This document shows positions 65 to 7,185 of a stretch of 7,185 nt of DNA, one piece after another. How positions within the stretch are numbered: position 1 is the stretch's first letter; every line of letters begins with the position of its first letter. The translations under genes and the position numbers were made by a program. This stretch comes from Pseudomonadota bacterium (GTDB lineage: Bacteria; Desulfobacterota; Syntrophia; Syntrophales; JADFWA01): NCBI GenBank assembly GCA_030610915.1, contig JAUWQS010000080.1, forward strand, positions 1 to 7,185, given 5' to 3'. The notes under the pieces are model-generated. The model ran no database searches. It saw nothing but the letters and a program-made list of their open reading frames with translations, and was not told the DNA's origin.

Positions 65-967
65 ATGAAAGAGAAAAGAGTTGTCATAAAAGATTTTTTT
101 TGGGTATTAACTGTGGTGGGAATCTCCTTTTTAGTGGGTTGTAATCTCAATCCGACGGAGCGGTCAAACTACTGTAAAAGCTGCCATGAAGGAAAGGGGG
201 TTTCTTATGTTGAGTCATCCCGCTTTCATGAAGATTTTCGTCTTGGGAAGAGAGAGTGCATCGATTGCCATAGCGATAAAGGAGTAATTGGCTCTGCGGA
301 AAATCAGGCAAGAGGTATCTCACACTTCTTAATTCGATATACCGGCAGTGAGCTTTATGCCTCTGCCCTGCCAGGTAAAAGATACTCCAATGATCAGTGT
401 CTTTTCTGTCATGAAAGTTCCTCAAAGATTGAGAAGATGGAGAGTATAGATCTTCCTGAAAAGCTTAAAAAGACCGGGTTGAAGTTTGATCACCTGACCC
501 ATTTGGATTTAAGTGATTTTTCAAAAGATGATCAACATGAACTGAAAGCGCTGGAAGGAAAAACAGCTCTTTCCCCGGAAGAAAAAGAGAAACTGGAATT
601 TCTGCAGAAGGTGAAGAGGGCCAATTGTGCTCAATGTCATGGGAAAGATAAGGTTGCGCCGGACGGCAAGAAATATGTAGATAAGTATGTAAATTATATT
701 GCCGAAGATCCCATGGTCTGTACCGCTTGCCACCAGGATATCGATTTCCTGCGGCATCCTGGCCGGCCTAATGAAAAACCGGGAATTCCTCGAGAAGAGT
801 CGTGTCGACGCTGCCATGACGGCAAGTTACATGGAAGCGCAAATCTTAGAATTTTTCTTTCAGATTGTGAAAGCGCTGACAAAGAGAACTGTTCAAAATG
901 TCATCCGGGTTATGTAGTGCCTGAACGAAAAACCCGTTCAGGCACGGTTTCGAGTTTGGGGTTTTGA
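65..967 (+). CDS. Heptaheme c-type cytochrome lipoprotein
   Basis: Probable extracytoplasmic electron carrier of 300 residues. Residues 1-26 form a lipoprotein signal: a basic start (MKEKR), a hydrophobic stretch, and lipobox LVGC with the lipidated Cys at 26. Seven CxxCH heme-binding motifs begin at Cys 37, 65, 112, 188, 219, 247 and 276, with a charged helical linker at about 120-185 between hemes 3 and 4. Extra His residues could be axial ligands. The class is closest to cytochrome c3/NapC-like multiheme proteins, but I cannot name a specific family. An in-frame ATG at 32 is less likely: its ribosome site lies in a hairpin, and it would put 11 residues before the lipoprotein signal. AAGGG at 56-60 serves the ATG at 65. 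The last 16 residues (285-300) and the stop come from an inserted repeat element; the native tail was probably AEKAVSPQGRKGK. First gene of a four-gene set with iron-sulfur proteins and a fumarate reductase-type flavoprotein, suggesting it exchanges electrons with that complex. Confidence 0.9.
   Translation: MKEKRVVIKDFFWVLTVVGISFLVGCNLNPTERSNYCKSCHEGKGVSYVESSRFHEDFRLGKRECIDCHSDKGVIGSAENQARGISHFLIRYTGSELYASALPGKRYSNDQCLFCHESSSKIEKMESIDLPEKLKKTGLKFDHLTHLDLSDFSKDDQHELKALEGKTALSPEEKEKLEFLQKVKRANCAQCHGKDKVAPDGKKYVDKYVNYIAEDPMVCTACHQDIDFLRHPGRPNEKPGIPREESCRRCHDGKLHGSANLRIFLSDCESADKENCSKCHPGYVVPERKTRSGTVSSLGF
917..945 (+). repeat. 11-bp perfect inverted repeat at the element's left end
   Basis: GTGCCTGAACG (917-927) and CGTTCAGGCAC (935-945) flank a 7-nt loop and can form a strong hairpin inside the last codons of the cytochrome gene. 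The right end of the element lacks such a local partner, so the two ends are structurally asymmetric. The following bases are mixed G/T, not a clean T-run. It may slow transcription or stabilise the upstream mRNA segment, but it is not a convincing terminator. Confidence 0.7.
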
Positions 968-1058
968 GTTTCGAGTTAAAAAGAGAAAGTAATCTCAGCG
1001 AGTTGGGAATCTCTAAACAAAATCGAAAAACCATATTTCAGGGTTTTCGTTCAGGCAC
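917..1058. mobile_element. 142-bp MITE-like insertion in the cytochrome gene's 3' end
   Basis: The left end reads GTGCCTGAACGAAAAACCC (917-935). The right end (1041-1058), reverse-complemented, reads GTGCCTGAACGAAAACCC, identical except for one A. The element is flanked by the direct repeat TATGTA at 911-916 and 1059-1064 (TATGTAG if the shared G is counted), which looks like a target-site duplication. Inside are an AT-rich stretch with GAGTTT/CGAGTT repeats and a second copy of CGAAAAACC at 1024-1032. There is no transposase gene, so it would be non-autonomous. It supplies the present stop codon of the cytochrome gene. The donor transposase family is unknown. Confidence 0.8.
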
Positions 1059-1102
1059 TATGTAGCAGAAAAGGCAGTTAGTCCACAAGGGAGGAAGGGG
1101 AA

Positions 1103-1588
1103 ATGAAACCTGTAACCGCAATTGAGGAAGACTTAACTCACCCTCAAAAAAGGATAGTAGATAGAATCCTTGACATTAAAGAACCGCCGGTTGCTCGCTG
1201 TCGATTGCTTTCCAAAGGTATGGAATCATATTATAGACTCTACCTCGCGGATGGTGATATCGATATAGCGGGTGACAAGGCCTGTATTGGCTGTGGGAAT
1301 TGTGTTGATTCCTGCCCGGTCTTGAGGAGAGAGCCGGAACGAAGAGAAAAGACGGTTCAACGCACCTCATTTGCCCTGGAGACAATCGTGGCAGATGATT
1401 GCGAGCAGTGTTATTCATGTGTCCTTGCCTGCCCGCAGGTGGATACAAACATTAAGGATTATATTGTAGATGAAAGGGTGCCTGAGGCGATTCCGCAAAA
1501 TAAGAAGGTGACCCTTATGGATAATTATTATATGGTGATCGCCGCCCTGGTTCTTGGGATTATAATTGGCGTATTTCTGGTAAGATAA
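1103..1588 (+). CDS. Tail-anchored protein with two [4Fe-4S] motifs (HdrC-like)
   Basis: A 161-residue electron-transfer protein. It has two CxxCxxCxxxCP motifs: Cys 61, 64, 67, 71 and Cys 100, 103, 106, 110. This is the HdrC/ferredoxin arrangement for two [4Fe-4S] clusters. There is no signal peptide. Residues about 142-160 form a single C-terminal transmembrane helix, so the clusters are expected in the cytoplasm, tethered to the membrane. The start is preceded by GGGAGG (1089-1094) at a good distance. It lies 13 bp before the next iron-sulfur gene and two genes before the flavoprotein, so it probably passes electrons between the membrane side and the soluble Fe-S/flavin subunits. No heme b or quinone-binding membrane subunit is visible in the window, so its direct partner in the membrane is unknown. 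Before the upstream repeat insertion, its ATG probably overlapped the cytochrome stop codon (ATGA). Confidence 0.85.
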   Translation: MKPVTAIEEDLTHPQKRIVDRILDIKEPPVARCRLLSKGMESYYRLYLADGDIDIAGDKACIGCGNCVDSCPVLRREPERREKTVQRTSFALETIVADDCEQCYSCVLACPQVDTNIKDYIVDERVPEAIPQNKKVTLMDNYYMVIAALVLGIIIGVFLVR

Positions 1589-1601
1589 AAGGAGGAAAAA
1601 G

Positions 1602-2360
1602 ATGAGTGATGCAGGTGAAAAATCCAGGATAGAGGGCGGAGAAGCTCCTCTGGTGCCTATTTATATAATGGGAAGCAAGTATGATGTCCCTGATACATTA
1701 ACTATCCAAAAGGCCTTGGAATATGCGGGATATCAGCTTATCAGGGGTTGTGGCTGCAGGGGAGGGATATGTGGCGCCTGCGGGACCGTCTATCGATTTC
1801 CCGACAGTCCCAAGATAGAGGTTGGTCTGGCCTGCCAGACCGTTGTCCAGCCAAACATGTATATTACCCAGATTCCATTCTTCCCGGCCAATAAGACGGC
1901 TTATGACATAGATGAAGTAAAGCCCACGGGGGAAGAGGTAATAAAACTGTATCCCGAGCTGTTAAAGTGTATGGGTTGTAATACATGCACTAAATCCTGT
2001 CCGATGGATATTGAGGTGATGGAGTATATATCGGCCGCTATCAAGGGGGACGTCGCAAGGGCGGCAGAGTTGTCCTTCAGTTGTGTGATGTGCGGCTTAT
2101 GTGCCTCAAGGTGTCCGGCAGAGCTGTGTCAATATAACATCGCCATCTTGTGCAGAAGATTGTATGGTAAGCATGTAGCCCCAAGGGCGCAACATACACA
2201 AGAACAGGTGAAAAAGATTGAAGAGGGGTATTTTGATAAGGCCCTGAAGGAGCTTATGGAAACGGACAGGAAAGGTTTGGAGAAGCTTTACACCGACAGG
2301 GAAAATGAACCGGAGATGGCGGATGAGTACTGGGAGCCGTCCGATAAAACATATTTGTAA
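1602..2360 (+). CDS. Iron-sulfur subunit, [2Fe-2S] plus two [4Fe-4S] (SdhB/TfrB-like)
   Basis: A 252-residue soluble iron-sulfur protein. The N-terminal part (about 18-95) is a plant-type [2Fe-2S] ferredoxin fold with ligands Cys 52, 57, 60 and 78 (Cx4Cx2C then a distal C); Cys 50 is extra. The second part has two [4Fe-4S] motifs, CMGCNTCTKSCP (Cys 123, 126, 129, 133) and CVMCGLCASRCP (Cys 161, 164, 167, 171). The tail after 190 is charged and helical. This is the layout of fumarate reductase/succinate dehydrogenase iron-sulfur subunits and the N-terminal part of thiol:fumarate reductase TfrB. Two full CxxCxxCxxxCP motifs differ from the [3Fe-4S] site of canonical SdhB/FrdB, and there is no C-terminal CCG (HdrB-like) domain. 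GGAGG at 1591-1595 sets the start. It should carry electrons between the tail-anchored Fe-S protein upstream and the flavoprotein encoded 18 bp downstream. Confidence 0.88.
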   Translation: MSDAGEKSRIEGGEAPLVPIYIMGSKYDVPDTLTIQKALEYAGYQLIRGCGCRGGICGACGTVYRFPDSPKIEVGLACQTVVQPNMYITQIPFFPANKTAYDIDEVKPTGEEVIKLYPELLKCMGCNTCTKSCPMDIEVMEYISAAIKGDVARAAELSFSCVMCGLCASRCPAELCQYNIAILCRRLYGKHVAPRAQHTQEQVKKIEEGYFDKALKELMETDRKGLEKLYTDRENEPEMADEYWEPSDKTYL

Positions 2361-2378
2361 TAGAATTTGGGGGAAATT

Positions 2379-4052
2379 ATGGGATATACACCGGAACTGA
2401 AAAATCTTATAAAGATAGTTGAAAAGACGAGGCCGGGGCGTGTAGAGAAAAAAAAGAGGGGTGAGGAGATGCCCGCTTTATCCCTTGCCGAAAGGGAAGA
2501 GAGGCTGAGAAAATACCATCCCGATTTTATAGAGGGCAACCGGAGGGAAATCACGTTAGGCCCCAGCAAAGGTTACGCTATCAGCAGGGAGATAGTGGAT
2601 CTTTTGGAGGCGAAGAGCCGGTACGAACCTGATGATATCAATCTTTCGGAGGTAGATTACGAGACCGATGTCCTGGTTATCGGAGGAGGCGGGGCGGGAA
2701 CTGCCGCCGCCCTTCTGGCCCAGGAGCAGGGAGCAAAGGTGCTTATTGTCACAAAGCTTCGCCACGGCGATGCCAATACCATGATGGCCGAAGGAGGCAT
2801 CCAGGCGGCCGACAAGGGAGAGAAAGATTCCCCCTATTACCATTATCTCGACGTAGTGGGAGGAGGTCATTTCGTTAATGATCCTGAGCTGGTTTATACC
2901 CTTGTTACTGAAGCGCCCAAGGTACTGGAGTGGTTCGATAGATTGGGTATGATGTTTGACAAGCTGCCCGATGGAAGGTTTTACTCGCTGCATGGTGGAG
3001 GCACCTGCAGGAAAAGGATGCATGCCGCCGGGGATATCAGTGGCGCAGAGATTATGAGGACCCTTCGGGATGAGGCCAGAAATCGAAAGAAGGATATTAC
3101 AGTATTGGAATTTTCCCCTGTTGTGGATCTGATCTTGAATGAGCACGGTCATTGCGCAGGGGCGTTGCTTTACAATCTGGAGACTAAAGAATATCATACC
3201 GTAAAGGCAAAGGCGACAATAATTGCCACCGGTGGTTCAGGAAGGTTGCATATCCAGAATAGTATGACTACCAACCATTATGGAGCTACCGGAGATGGTT
3301 TGATTATAGGTTATCGGGCCGGCGTCAAACTCTGCTTTCTGCACACGGTTCAGTACCATCCAACAGGCGCAATATTTCCGGAACAGGCGGAGGGGCTGTT
3401 AATCACTGAGAAGGTAAGAGGAGCAGGGGCTAATGTCTTAAATATTGATGGTGAGCAGTTCGTTTACGAAAGGGAGCCCAGAGATGTGGAGAGCGCTTCC
3501 TTTATCAGGGAATGCACCGATGTAGGAAAAGGAATCCCCGTTTCCGGAGGAAAGTGGGGAGTCTGGCTTGATTCACCTATGATCGATATGCTGTCAGGAC
3601 CGGGAACGGTGGCGAAGGAACTTCCCGGTAAGTTAATACTTTTCAAGAGATACGGTATCGATATCTCCAAAGAGCCTATGCTGGTTTATCCTACTCTCCA
3701 TTATCAAAATGGCGGACTGGAATATGATAGCAAAGGTGAAACCTGTGTTCCCGGGCTGTTTGTTGCCGGCGAGGTAGGCGGAGGTGTCCATGGAGAGAAT
3801 CGCCTGATGGGGAATTCACTTCTCGATATAAATGTTTTTGGAAGAATTGCAGGGGTGAACGCCGCTGTTTATGCCGGTGAGAAAGCAAAGGAAGGAAAAC
3901 TGACCTTAGATCATGTAAGAGATTATAACAAAGAAGTGGACAAGGTGGGGGTTGGTCCTGCCAAGGTTGCTCCGATGCTGCTTCCCGATTACAGTAACCC
4001 GGAGGTAAGAAAGAGACAGATTACCGCTTGCTATGAAGGGACATTGAGGTAA
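2379..4052 (+). CDS. Fumarate reductase/succinate dehydrogenase-type flavoprotein subunit
   Basis: A 557-residue FAD-dependent oxidoreductase, predicted cytoplasmic (no Tat or Sec signal). An N-terminal extension of about 95 residues precedes the Rossmann motif DVLVIGGGGAG (97-107). The catalytic region is intact: HPTG (His327), PRD (Arg368, matching E. coli FrdA Arg287), LHY (His441, matching His355) and HGENRL (Arg475, matching Arg390). These support interconversion of fumarate and succinate or a close analogue. In the loop that carries the covalent FAD-His of SdhA/FrdA (HTxxAxGG), this protein has Asn133 (NTMMAEGG), so FAD should be non-covalent, as in L-aspartate oxidase. Its context with Fe-S subunits and a cytochrome argues against NadB. 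Only about 80 residues follow Arg475, so the C-terminal helical domain of FrdA is short or absent. The ATG at 2379 has GGGGGA at 2369-2374; an in-frame TTG at 2367 is less likely. Direction in vivo cannot be told from sequence. Confidence 0.9.
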   Translation: MGYTPELKNLIKIVEKTRPGRVEKKKRGEEMPALSLAEREERLRKYHPDFIEGNRREITLGPSKGYAISREIVDLLEAKSRYEPDDINLSEVDYETDVLVIGGGGAGTAAALLAQEQGAKVLIVTKLRHGDANTMMAEGGIQAADKGEKDSPYYHYLDVVGGGHFVNDPELVYTLVTEAPKVLEWFDRLGMMFDKLPDGRFYSLHGGGTCRKRMHAAGDISGAEIMRTLRDEARNRKKDITVLEFSPVVDLILNEHGHCAGALLYNLETKEYHTVKAKATIIATGGSGRLHIQNSMTTNHYGATGDGLIIGYRAGVKLCFLHTVQYHPTGAIFPEQAEGLLITEKVRGAGANVLNIDGEQFVYEREPRDVESASFIRECTDVGKGIPVSGGKWGVWLDSPMIDMLSGPGTVAKELPGKLILFKRYGIDISKEPMLVYPTLHYQNGGLEYDSKGETCVPGLFVAGEVGGGVHGENRLMGNSLLDINVFGRIAGVNAAVYAGEKAKEGKLTLDHVRDYNKEVDKVGVGPAKVAPMLLPDYSNPEVRKRQITACYEGTLR

Positions 4053-4159
4053 ACGTATTAGCTCAATAAATAGGGGCAAACCCAGGTATGTAAGAGTGAG
4101 CGTGGATTGTAGCCATTCACAGCTTGAAACTTGAAATTGGAAAATAGAAATTTGGAAGG

Positions 4160-4201
4160 CCTGTCTGCGTGCGGGTACCTGTCTGCCGTGCTGGCACAGG
4201 T
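4160..4201. repeat. Tandem GC-rich motif with hairpin in the core of the element
   Basis: CCTGTCTGCGTGC (4160-4172) is followed by CCTGTCTGCCGTGC (4178-4191), an imperfect direct repeat. The second copy can fold: ACCTGT (4177-4182) pairs with ACAGGT (4196-4201), and GCC/GGC extends the stem inside. Its composition is unlike the A/T-rich arms around it, so it may be a separate repeat that inserted into, or was captured by, the larger element. Confidence 0.55.
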
Positions 4202-4240
4202 AGGGATGAAACGAGTTGACAGTACAAAAGTATGAAGGCC

Positions 4241-4272
4241 AAATTTCTAATTTCAGTGAACGCTTACCGTGG
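4241..4272. repeat. Direct repeat copy 1 (AAATTTCT...AACGCTTACCGTGG)
   Basis: AAATTTCT at 4241-4248 and AACGCTTACCGTGG at 4259-4272 reappear in the same order and orientation, with one base less spacing, at 4468-4498. The second block matches at 12 of 14 positions. Copy 1 lies in the right arm of the 264-bp element and copy 2 lies outside it, next to the ompA-like gene's stop. This suggests that a dispersed repeat family seeds this spacer. Confidence 0.5.
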
Positions 4273-4380
4273 AGCCCAACATTTCAAAGATGTAATCCCC
4301 TATTTATTGAACTGATACATGTAAACATTATCTGATTATTACAGGCTTGGCCGAAAGTGTAAAAAGCACTGATAGAGGGG

Positions 4381-5607: not shown

Positions 5608-5922
5608 TTAATAAACCCCTCTGATGTGGTTTACGATTAACTTTACCGTCTCATCAGTCTTTGCCAGGGCATCTGCTTTAATCTGAAGCGCCTGCCTTTT
5701 TGAATTCTCAATCTGTTTATTCGCCTCTTTCTCGGCCGTATTGATGATTTTGTCTCGCTCTATTCTGCTTTCATCCACAGGAAACTCTGAGGACAGTATC
5801 TCGCCGGCCTTTTTTCCGGCATCGCGGAGTACCTGTCCGGCCCTGACACTCGTCTCCTCAAGAAGTTTCTCCGCCTCGCTTTCGATTTCCCCTATCGTGG
5901 CAAGCATCTCGTCCTCAGGCAT
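5608..5922 (-). CDS. ahaH: V/A-type ATPase peripheral stalk subunit (AhaH/G-like)
   Basis: A 104-residue, almost entirely charged, Ala/Glu/Lys-rich protein predicted to be one long coiled coil. It starts EIESEAEKLLEE and ends LAKTDETVKLIVNHIRG, the pattern of V/A-ATPase subunit H (AhaH)/V-ATPase G proteins that pair with subunit E to form the peripheral stalk joining the catalytic head to the membrane part. The length is normal for the family. The context agrees: subunit D lies three genes upstream on the same strand. The start is uncertain. The first ATG (5922) has no clear ribosome site, while the ATG at 5907 has GAGG five bases upstream and would remove five residues. It lies 14 bp after the RsbRD-like gene. 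In archaeal ATPase operons this subunit is often encoded first, so its place after D is a rearranged order. Confidence 0.72.
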   Translation of the reverse strand: MPEDEMLATIGEIESEAEKLLEETSVRAGQVLRDAGKKAGEILSSEFPVDESRIERDKIINTAEKEANKQIENSKRQALQIKADALAKTDETVKLIVNHIRGVY

Positions 5923-5936
5923 GACATGAGCCGTTA

Positions 5937-6377
5937 TTATTTGCCCAGATCCTCGTATCTTTTAATGACAATATATATGCCATGATCAAAGATGCGTATT
6001 GTTTTATTAATGCTTCCCACTGCCTTTTGCTGATCAAGACCTGTAAGAACGACTGCCTGGAAATCGGCATAGATCCACATGTGCCTTCTCATCATAATGA
6101 GGGCGTATATGGCTTCGTGCAGGGGGATGCCTTCCTTATGTCTCTCTTCAGCGTACTTCGTAAAATAATCAGATATTTCGGTATATGGCTTCTCGCTAAA
6201 GTATATACGTCCCAGATTCTTATAGAAGTCCATGGCATGCAGGACACACTGATCCTGCATTATAGAATGATATGATGGTGTTCTGGGATTTGACCTCACT
6301 GCTTTGCTCCACTGGTTGGAAATTTCTTCCGCGTGTTGTTCTGTAATATTGATCAGCTTGTCTTCAAATGCTCTCAT
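5937..6377 (-). CDS. RsbRD N-terminal-like stand-alone helical regulator
   Basis: A 146-residue all-helical soluble protein. It resembles the N-terminal domain of RsbRD-type stress-sensing proteins: an early Trp (NQWSKAV), a Tyr-rich middle, and the signature-like stretch HKEGIPLHEAIYALIMMRRHMWIY, in which an acidic-Gly-hydrophobic turn leads into a long helix with paired Arg and Trp. The STAS domain that follows in full RsbR proteins is absent, so this is a stand-alone domain. The start has a strong site, GGGAGGG (complement of 6386-6392), 8 bases upstream. It lies between a UPF0216 gene and an ATPase stalk gene, so it may sense cell state and modulate the ATPase, but nothing in the sequence proves that. 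The family assignment rests on remembered motif patterns. Confidence 0.6.
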   Translation of the reverse strand: MRAFEDKLINITEQHAEEISNQWSKAVRSNPRTPSYHSIMQDQCVLHAMDFYKNLGRIYFSEKPYTEISDYFTKYAEERHKEGIPLHEAIYALIMMRRHMWIYADFQAVVLTGLDQQKAVGSINKTIRIFDHGIYIVIKRYEDLGK

Positions 6378-6416
6378 TATATATACCCTCCCTTTTTTAA
6401 GTTTTCAGCAGGAATT

Positions 6417-6827
6417 CTAAAGGAAAAAAACGTACTGTGTAGTTGTTTCTAGCGCCTTTCTCACTATCCTCAACTGAGATCTGCCTATCGTTATCATATC
6501 TTGTTTACACACTACAGACATACCGAGAACCTTTGAGAATATCTTCGCTTCAATCCCCTTCTTTGATCTTATGGTTACCCCGTTTTGATCCGGGCTGACC
6601 TCAATAATCAAGGGAAGCAGAAGAGAATCTTGCTCTTGCTTATCTAACATTTGGGATAGATAGTCAAGTTCTTTTCTTTTGAAAAAATGAGCGTTACCAT
6701 CATTGCATATTACATGTGGGTGCCTTTCCTTCAAGAGTTCGGTGAGTGATCTTTGTTTGCGTGGGAGGTGTGCATTCAGGACTCTGAATTCGCCCTTCAG
6801 GCGCCCTGCAAAATTATCAATAGGCAT
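6417..6827 (-). CDS. UPF0216/DUF61 family protein (archaeal-type)
   Basis: A 136-residue soluble protein of unknown function. It matches the UPF0216/DUF61 pattern known mainly from archaea: LNAHLPRKQRSLTELLKE near the N-terminus (residues about 17-34), a DGNAHFFKRKELDYLSQML segment (about 43-61), a hydrophobic LLLPLIIEV strand (about 69-77), and a C-terminus ending ALETTTQYVFFL. The length is typical and the frame intact. It overlaps the subunit D gene by 11 bp (6817-6827), which implies translational coupling and co-expression with the V/A-ATPase; a weak purine-rich site (AGAGAGAAG) precedes its ATG. Finding it inside a bacterial ATPase cluster hints that ATPase and neighbour were transferred from an archaeon together, or that the protein works with the enzyme. 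No catalytic motif is recognised. Confidence 0.75.
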   Translation of the reverse strand: MPIDNFAGRLKGEFRVLNAHLPRKQRSLTELLKERHPHVICNDGNAHFFKRKELDYLSQMLDKQEQDSLLLPLIIEVSPDQNGVTIRSKKGIEAKIFSKVLGMSVVCKQDMITIGRSQLRIVRKALETTTQYVFFL

Positions 6828-7185
6828 GTGCTTCTCTCTGCTCGATTAGCAGTTTGACCCGCTTGAGCCGTGCGGACTCTTCACGGTCCCTCTCTTCAAA
6901 TTTCATGGTTAAGTACCTTATGGTGGCATCAAGATCCGGGACCACGATATGCTCCAGGGCGTTGTTCACCCTTTTTACTTTATTGATCTCCATCCCCAGG
7001 AGTTCTAAGGATTTTTGAAGTTCAGCCAGTTCGATAGAGGTCGCAAGACATTTTTGGGAGAGCATGGCGGTATGATCCATAATGGAAGATGTGCCGGCCT
7101 GATTCTGCGCATCCAATTGCCGATCATCGGTCTTTTCAATCTCGAAAAGCGGCAAAATAACCCCCGCAACATTTCTTGTCATGGT
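6817..7185 (-). CDS. atpD: V/A-type ATP synthase subunit D, C-terminal part (partial)
   Basis: Central rotor shaft subunit of the V/A-type ATPase, cut by the window edge: 122 residues are visible and the N-terminus lies beyond 7185. RNVAGVILPLFE near the visible start is the conserved segment between the two long helices. The rest (SIELAELQKSLELLGMEINKVKRVNNALEHIVVPDLDATIRYLTMKFEERDREESARLKRVK region) is the second shaft helix with the characteristic VNALEH..P.L..TI.YI..LEERERE pattern of NtpD/AtpD; here it reads VNNALEHIVVPDLDATIRY. The ATG at 7182 is internal, not the start, because Thr precedes it in an open frame. Subunits A and B would be expected just outside the window to the right. 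The stop overlaps the UPF0216 start. Confidence 0.9.
   Translation of the reverse strand, partial: TMTRNVAGVILPLFEIEKTDDRQLDAQNQAGTSSIMDHTAMLSQKCLATSIELAELQKSLELLGMEINKVKRVNNALEHIVVPDLDATIRYLTMKFEERDREESARLKRVKLLIEQREAHAY

Follow-up and report, generated by a model that had tools for sequence, protein, structure and literature searches.

What happened at the 3′ end of the cytochrome gene in this locus, and what kind of DNA now stands between it and the next gene? The original prediction was that a MITE-like insertion had rewritten the cytochrome C-terminus, and this is borne out by the tails of relatives and by copies of the element elsewhere. All positions refer to the window, meaning the whole stretch of 7,185 nt that was analysed. 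We regard it as very probable that 917–1058 is a MITE with the ends of an ISNCY-type IS, which inserted at TATGTA, replaced the protein tail and split the gene junction. The class assignment follows from copies with TANNTA duplications of their own and from ends in common with ISNCY loci.

Structure of the element and its insertion site

The features of the locus are as follows.

65–967, forward strand: gene for a heptahaem c-type cytochrome whose N-terminus is lipoprotein-like; at present 300 aa, seven CxxCH motifs, domains Cytochrome_C7, Cytochrom_c3_2 and Paired_CXXCH_1
911–916, forward strand: left copy of the target duplication, TATGTA; its length was set by the agreement of the empty-site reading with the homologue P0001
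917–1058, forward strand: the element, very probably a MITE; 142 bp, holding at most 47 codons, below the size of a transposase gene
917–935, forward strand: left terminal inverted repeat, GTGCCTGAACGAAAAACCC, 19 nt
917–964, forward strand: new coding tail VPERKTRSGTVSSLGF from the element, followed by the stop TGA at 965–967
935–945, forward strand: inner inverted copy CGTTCAGGCAC, which pairs with 917–927
1041–1058, forward strand: right terminal inverted repeat, GGGTTTTCGTTCAGGCAC, 18 nt; its complement GTGCCTGAACGAAAACCC is one A short
1059–1064, forward strand: right copy of the target duplication, TATGTA
1065–1106, forward strand: severed stretch that used to close the cytochrome gene, 13 codons AEKAVSPQGRKGK and TGA, now untranslated in that frame
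1103–1588, forward strand: next gene, a 4Fe-4S dicluster protein of 161 aa

The terminal inverted repeats and the direct copies of TATGTA had been pointed out before, and every coordinate held on re-reading. The inner copy at 935–945 was absent from that account. As it is a third copy of the element end, 917–945 forms a perfect 11-bp hairpin. The inner copy and the outer end at 1048–1058 are direct repeats of each other. The left hairpin was also present in all seven relatives aligned with the window element (L031, L041, L038, L040, L037, L008 and L016), and the element as a whole can form a long stem (−48 kcal/mol).

A chance origin of arms and duplication was rejected. In simulated windows with the window's dinucleotide frequencies, exact 11-nt arms (60–400 nt apart) occurred alone with a mean of 0.72 per window. 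Together with identical flanking 6-mers they occurred in 0 of 400.

The properties expected of a MITE were found. The element is short (roughly <500 bp) and transposase-free, and its terminal inverted repeats differ in length by a single nucleotide. It has a target duplication with a known empty site, seen at the protein level in P0001. Many copies exist in genomes other than that of the window, and the ends are shared with an autonomous element.

Replacement of the cytochrome tail

The reading frame crosses the left junction as TAT GTA followed by GTG CCT GAA CGA of the element. The final 16 codons of the cytochrome are element sequence, which agrees with the earlier count of 16 new residues and a stop (TGA 965–967). 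All seven CxxCH motifs lie upstream of the insertion.

As predicted, removing 917–1064 (148 bp, i.e. 142 plus 6) leaves the frame open, and the TGA at 1104–1106 then overlaps the ATG at 1103–1105. The tail predicted for this empty site is GYVAEKAVSPQGRKGK. The nearest homologue found, P0001, is a cytochrome with 91% identity, and its C-terminus, GYLAEKAVSPQGRKEK, is as predicted for the site before insertion. Because the 148-bp removal gives the tail of P0001, the target duplication is taken to be 6 bp. The next homologue, P0002 (53% identical), ends in YSPEKVVGFYRREKGETSNNR. Orthologues that all shared the present tail would have spoken against an insertion; the VPERK tail was found in none of the eight homologues, nor in a distant ninth (P0004).

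Seven CxxCH motifs were present in the window cytochrome and in each of the eight homologues. The number of residues after the last haem motif varied from 8 to 23 among the homologues, and the tail is thus probably free to change. Cytochrome relatives in genome contigs were found at seven loci, with no more than 26–31% identity.

The junction with the next gene

The original prediction also gave a gap of 135 nt between the cytochrome stop and the next gene, and this was verified (968–1102). The start of the next gene and its GGAGG (1090–1094, 8 nt upstream of the start) are both intact.

P0001 and P0006, an Fe-S protein 90% identical to that of the window, each lie on a contig 4049 bp long. 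Other pairs of cytochrome and Fe-S protein were found on equal-sized contigs as well: P0003/P0015 (32528 bp), P0126/P0012 (5149 bp) and P0129/P0104 (1966 bp). On the strength of the matching contig sizes, P0001/P0006 and the other pairs are taken as genetically linked. An ancestral ATGA overlap of stop and start is likely, because the P0001 protein ends just where the window sequence would have it end; this is read at the protein level, from P0001 and P0006. From the stop position of P0001 and the presence of P0006 on a contig of 4049 bp, we infer that the two genes would once have been translationally coupled and that the coupling has since been lost.

The gene set to which both genes belong extends over 65–4052 and comprises the heptahaem cytochrome, the 4Fe-4S protein, a 2Fe-2S/4Fe-4S protein and a TfrA/FrdA-like flavoprotein. 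A relative of the flavoprotein (63% identical) comes after an Fe-S protein in genome G332 (L125). By our reading only, HdrC- and HdrB-like genes stand there in place of a cytochrome. No cytochrome was found at this locus among ORFs ≥120 aa in 8.5 kb, and hence there is no junction for comparison.

Directly after the flavoprotein stop, at 4050–4323, lies an inverted repeat with 27-nt arms (85% complementary, 220 nt apart). Pieces of it, including the first 26 nt, had dispersed matches in 12 of the 46 genomes of the G278 family, and it is probably another, composite, repeat element. The reverse strand of 5608–7185 encodes a V-type ATPase subunit D (cut by the window end), a DUF61 protein and a small protein whose AhaH match is below the cut-off.

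Copies in other genomes

The absence of any other copy would have weakened the case for an insertion; copies with 6-bp duplications of their own do exist, in other genomes. As a DNA query, the window element matched 23 of the 46 genomes in the family of G278 (E ≤1e-4). Among the matches listed, at least 10 of the 46 genomes had one covering ≥120 of 154 bases, and the others mainly matched an end. The best copy among the matches listed (L154 in G317) is identical in 129 of 142 columns. It lies at an unrelated site beside unrelated genes, outside long ORFs, and has its own duplication (TAAATA/TAAATA). Identity to the window element was 86.7% for L031, 78.9% for L041, 77.5% for L038 and 75.5% for L040; further copies reached 74.6% (L037), 64.6% (L008) and 61.9% (L016).

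The hairpin core was found in 11 of the 46 genomes of the G278 family. Across the phylum of G002 it was found in 2 of 297 genomes, with the reversed pattern in none. A stricter hairpin pattern was found in 7 of 85 genomes of the order, all of them inside the same 46. The hairpin pattern was found in 0 of 5 genomes reached via the distant relatives of the cytochrome.

Flanks were compared in 31 rows in which the ends alone defined the boundaries. These rows represent 30 distinct copies, since the L022 copy appears on both strands, and L018 was set one base out in this table. The 6-bp flanks were identical in 11 rows, differed at no more than one base in 17 and differed at two or more in 14. Over 2000 re-pairings, agreement with at most one of six bases different averaged 6.3 rows with a maximum of 13, against the 17 observed. 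When copies were selected for identical 6-bp flanks (22 in all), the flank was TANNTA in 20.

Position 4 of the left hairpin was compared in 83 copies (61 C-G, 8 T-A, 5 T-G, 8 C-A and 1 G-G). This hints weakly at covariation in the hairpin: the copies were chosen by likeness, and genome G075 alone accounts for seven of the eight T-A cases.

Among viral contigs, a scan found one from a phage (L008) that shares the left hairpin, differs in its interior and has TATCTA on either side. The family copy at L008:193–327 thus carries a TATCTA duplication of its own, and the phage might ferry it between hosts. A second viral scan returned L008 alone again, and a third brought in one more phage contig (L024, L025), whose repeat is unrelated. 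The element had no match at E ≤1e-5 in annotated phages and plasmids.

Two further kinds of related sequence were seen. Hairpins of 29 bp with direct, identical flanking 6-mers occur at L188:1503–1531 (TAATTA; the same copy as in L010) and at L189 (TATTTA). These are the two inspected of 11 such places, and some of the other nine are left ends of full elements. As the inner arm and the right end are direct repeats, the 29-bp hairpins could be remnants of deletions between them. At L069:1507–2328, ends of this kind enclose a stretch of 822 bp that lacks ORFs ≥90 aa and has TAATTA flanks. It is perhaps a longer non-coding relative.

An ISNCY-family transposase as the likely partner

A search with PF01609 gave 29 loci in 9 of 11 genomes, and two of them (L079 and L094) were picked for matching ends. 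The guess behind this search, an IS1634-like parent, was rejected, as NCBIfam assigned the two end-matching loci to ISNCY. The L079 transposase belongs to the ISNCY family (NF033593, 508 bits vs a cut-off of 325), and the L094 fragment scored 288 bits, below that cut-off. As controls, the 27 other PF01609 loci had no end at ≤4 mismatches, even within 600 bp.

With the L079 transposase as query, matches were found in 9 of the 46 genomes. The close set comprised nine loci with ≥57% identity; L115 was left out as the second fragment of the L105 copy. Within 400 bp, eight of the nine close loci had an outward end resembling TANNTA followed by GTGYCTGAACGAAAA, with ≤2 mismatches to TANNTAGTGYCTGAACGAAAA. 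The unbiased figure is six of seven, because L101 and L104 (the copies in L079 and L094) were first spotted by their ends. The end at L102 is an exact match and is flanked by TATGTA, the same target as in the window. The locus without an end, L105, is a broken fragment, and several further loci are likewise fragmentary, lying at contig ends. Both ends were seen in one transposase locus only (L101, 1931 bp), where the flanks TACTTA/TAATTA are one base different.

Five distant ISNCY relatives (24–26% identity; L108, L109, L111, L113 and L114) had ends with 5–7 mismatches. They were left uncounted because the best control (L087) also has 5 mismatches. L109 and L113 have TANNTA flanks that are alike on both sides.

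The likely parent of the MITE, judged by its ends, is an IS with an ISNCY-family transposase. The window element resembles this IS (NF033593) in its terminal ~20 bp and its TA-flanked target, and these ~20 bp at the ends are the only sequence that the two have in common. It differs in being 142 bp long, in having no transposase and in its left-end hairpin, which the inspected IS ends lack. The home of this ISNCY-type IS is presumably the ISDol1 group of ISfinder. An ISNCY subfamily by the name of ISDol1 does appear in excerpts of PMC8147514.

Proposed course of events and alternatives

An ISNCY-family DDE transposase, acting in trans, would have moved the 142-bp non-autonomous element into the window. 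The insertion would have occurred at TATGTA (the family target being TANNTA), 13 codons ahead of the cytochrome stop, with duplication of 6 bp. The cytochrome frame would then run into the element and end at TGA 965–967, with VPERKTRSGTVSSLGF taking the place of AEKAVSPQGRKGK. The next gene would keep its start and GGAGG, but the overlap of its start with the stop would give way to a distance of 135 nt.

We find it hardly credible that the inverted repeat is the operon's own intergenic hairpin, serving as a terminator or in mRNA processing and deleted in the relative. A long stem between two genes of the same direction would suit such a role, but the same sequence stands at unrelated sites in other genomes with duplications of its own, P0001 has the pre-insertion tail and none of the eight homologues has the present one. 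An intrinsic terminator and an Rfam RNA were both rejected as the identity of the hairpin: no terminator-like site was detected at 800–1300, and the window had no Rfam match at gathering scores. It is very improbable that the element belongs to another transposed class, be it REP/RAYT palindromes, paired ends of the IS200/IS605 type or IS630-type MITEs with their TA duplication. REP and IS605 ends are hairpins, as is the left end of the element at 917–945, and the arms can be lengthened by TA. However, IS200/IS605 are not known to make a target duplication, and the ends lie beside an ISNCY transposase in eight of the nine close loci. With a TA duplication, 144 bp would be removed, and the frame, read by hand, would give GYVCSRKGS and a stop. 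As this differs from the tail of P0001, which the removal of 148 bp fits, a TA-only duplication was rejected.

The insertion of a MITE with ISNCY-type ends might in addition have been adaptive, with the spacer or the new tail tuning the ratio of the cytochrome to the downstream Fe-S protein and flavoprotein. A 4-nt ATGA overlap has been replaced by 135 nt that can fold, and an influence of MITEs on prokaryotic gene expression, as reported in excerpts of PMC11448079, was counted in its favour. We nevertheless consider it unlikely: the homologues have 8 to 23 residues past their last haem motif, so the tail looks changeable, and the next gene still has its own start and GGAGG. We infer that the change of tail and spacer was close to neutral.

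Effect of the family on protein ends

Seven of the 22 copies with identical flanks span an ORF with ≥60 codons upstream, and the other 15 span none. These ORFs are mechanical calls, not proven genes. The window copy cost its ORF 13 codons and added 16; for L011 the figures are 18 lost and 20 gained, and for L022 17 and 19. L014, in the opposite orientation, lost 4 codons and gained 11. Losses were 39 codons in L035, 23 in L183 and 430 in L146, with gains of 1, 1 and 8, respectively. L008 lost 22 and gained 13; with 56 codons upstream it is among the 15 below the threshold. A frame bias of the insertions was dropped as an idea, since frame 0 and frame 1 both occur among the seven ORF-spanning copies.

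Since TA closes the target duplication and GTGCCTGA opens the element, the three frames across the junction give TAG, GCC TGA and, in the third case, VPERK... followed by an early stop. It is conceivable, though rather doubtful, that the family ends are compact translation-ending modules that settle at the 3′ ends of genes and swap tails with little harm (window, L008, L011, L014 and L022).

Comparison with known elements and significance

According to excerpts of PMC5896051, QMITE1 and QMITE2 of Coxiella burnetii overlap the 3′ ends of functional genes, contributing 33 residues in the case of EnhC. Like the window element, they are MITEs that supply C-terminal residues; compared by description, they are 300–400 and 150–190 bp long with direct repeats of 2–3 or 7–11 nt, against 6 in the window. 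The Chunjie MITE of Geobacter uraniireducens, named in the review PMC10969869, is reported in the title of its original paper to be inserted in an operon. In this it resembles the window element; by description it is longer (235 vs 142 bp). Passages of the same review describe Rickettsia palindromic elements of ~150 bp that lie in-frame in genes and change the product, and call in-frame fusions not unusual. Those elements give in-frame fusions, whereas the window element ends the protein inside itself.

A MITE family with a left hairpin and ISNCY-type ends was not found described in the literature searched, mostly titles and the starts of abstracts, nor in the passages of PMC8147514, PMC10132070, PMC10045372, PMC10969869, PMC11448079 and PMC5896051. 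We therefore rate the change of C-termini by a MITE as already on record, and this family as apparently undescribed in the literature searched.

The locus is a well-resolved case of a redox protein with a replaced end and of a split operon junction; the tail from before the insertion can still be read in the DNA and occurs in a close relative. An ISNCY transposase would have moved the window copy in trans. The prolific MITE family, with its left-end hairpin and TANNTA target, is linked to an ISNCY transposase, and the pairing is therefore open to laboratory test. If the family ends did act as translation-ending modules, protein C-termini in these bacteria would repeatedly have evolved by tail replacement.
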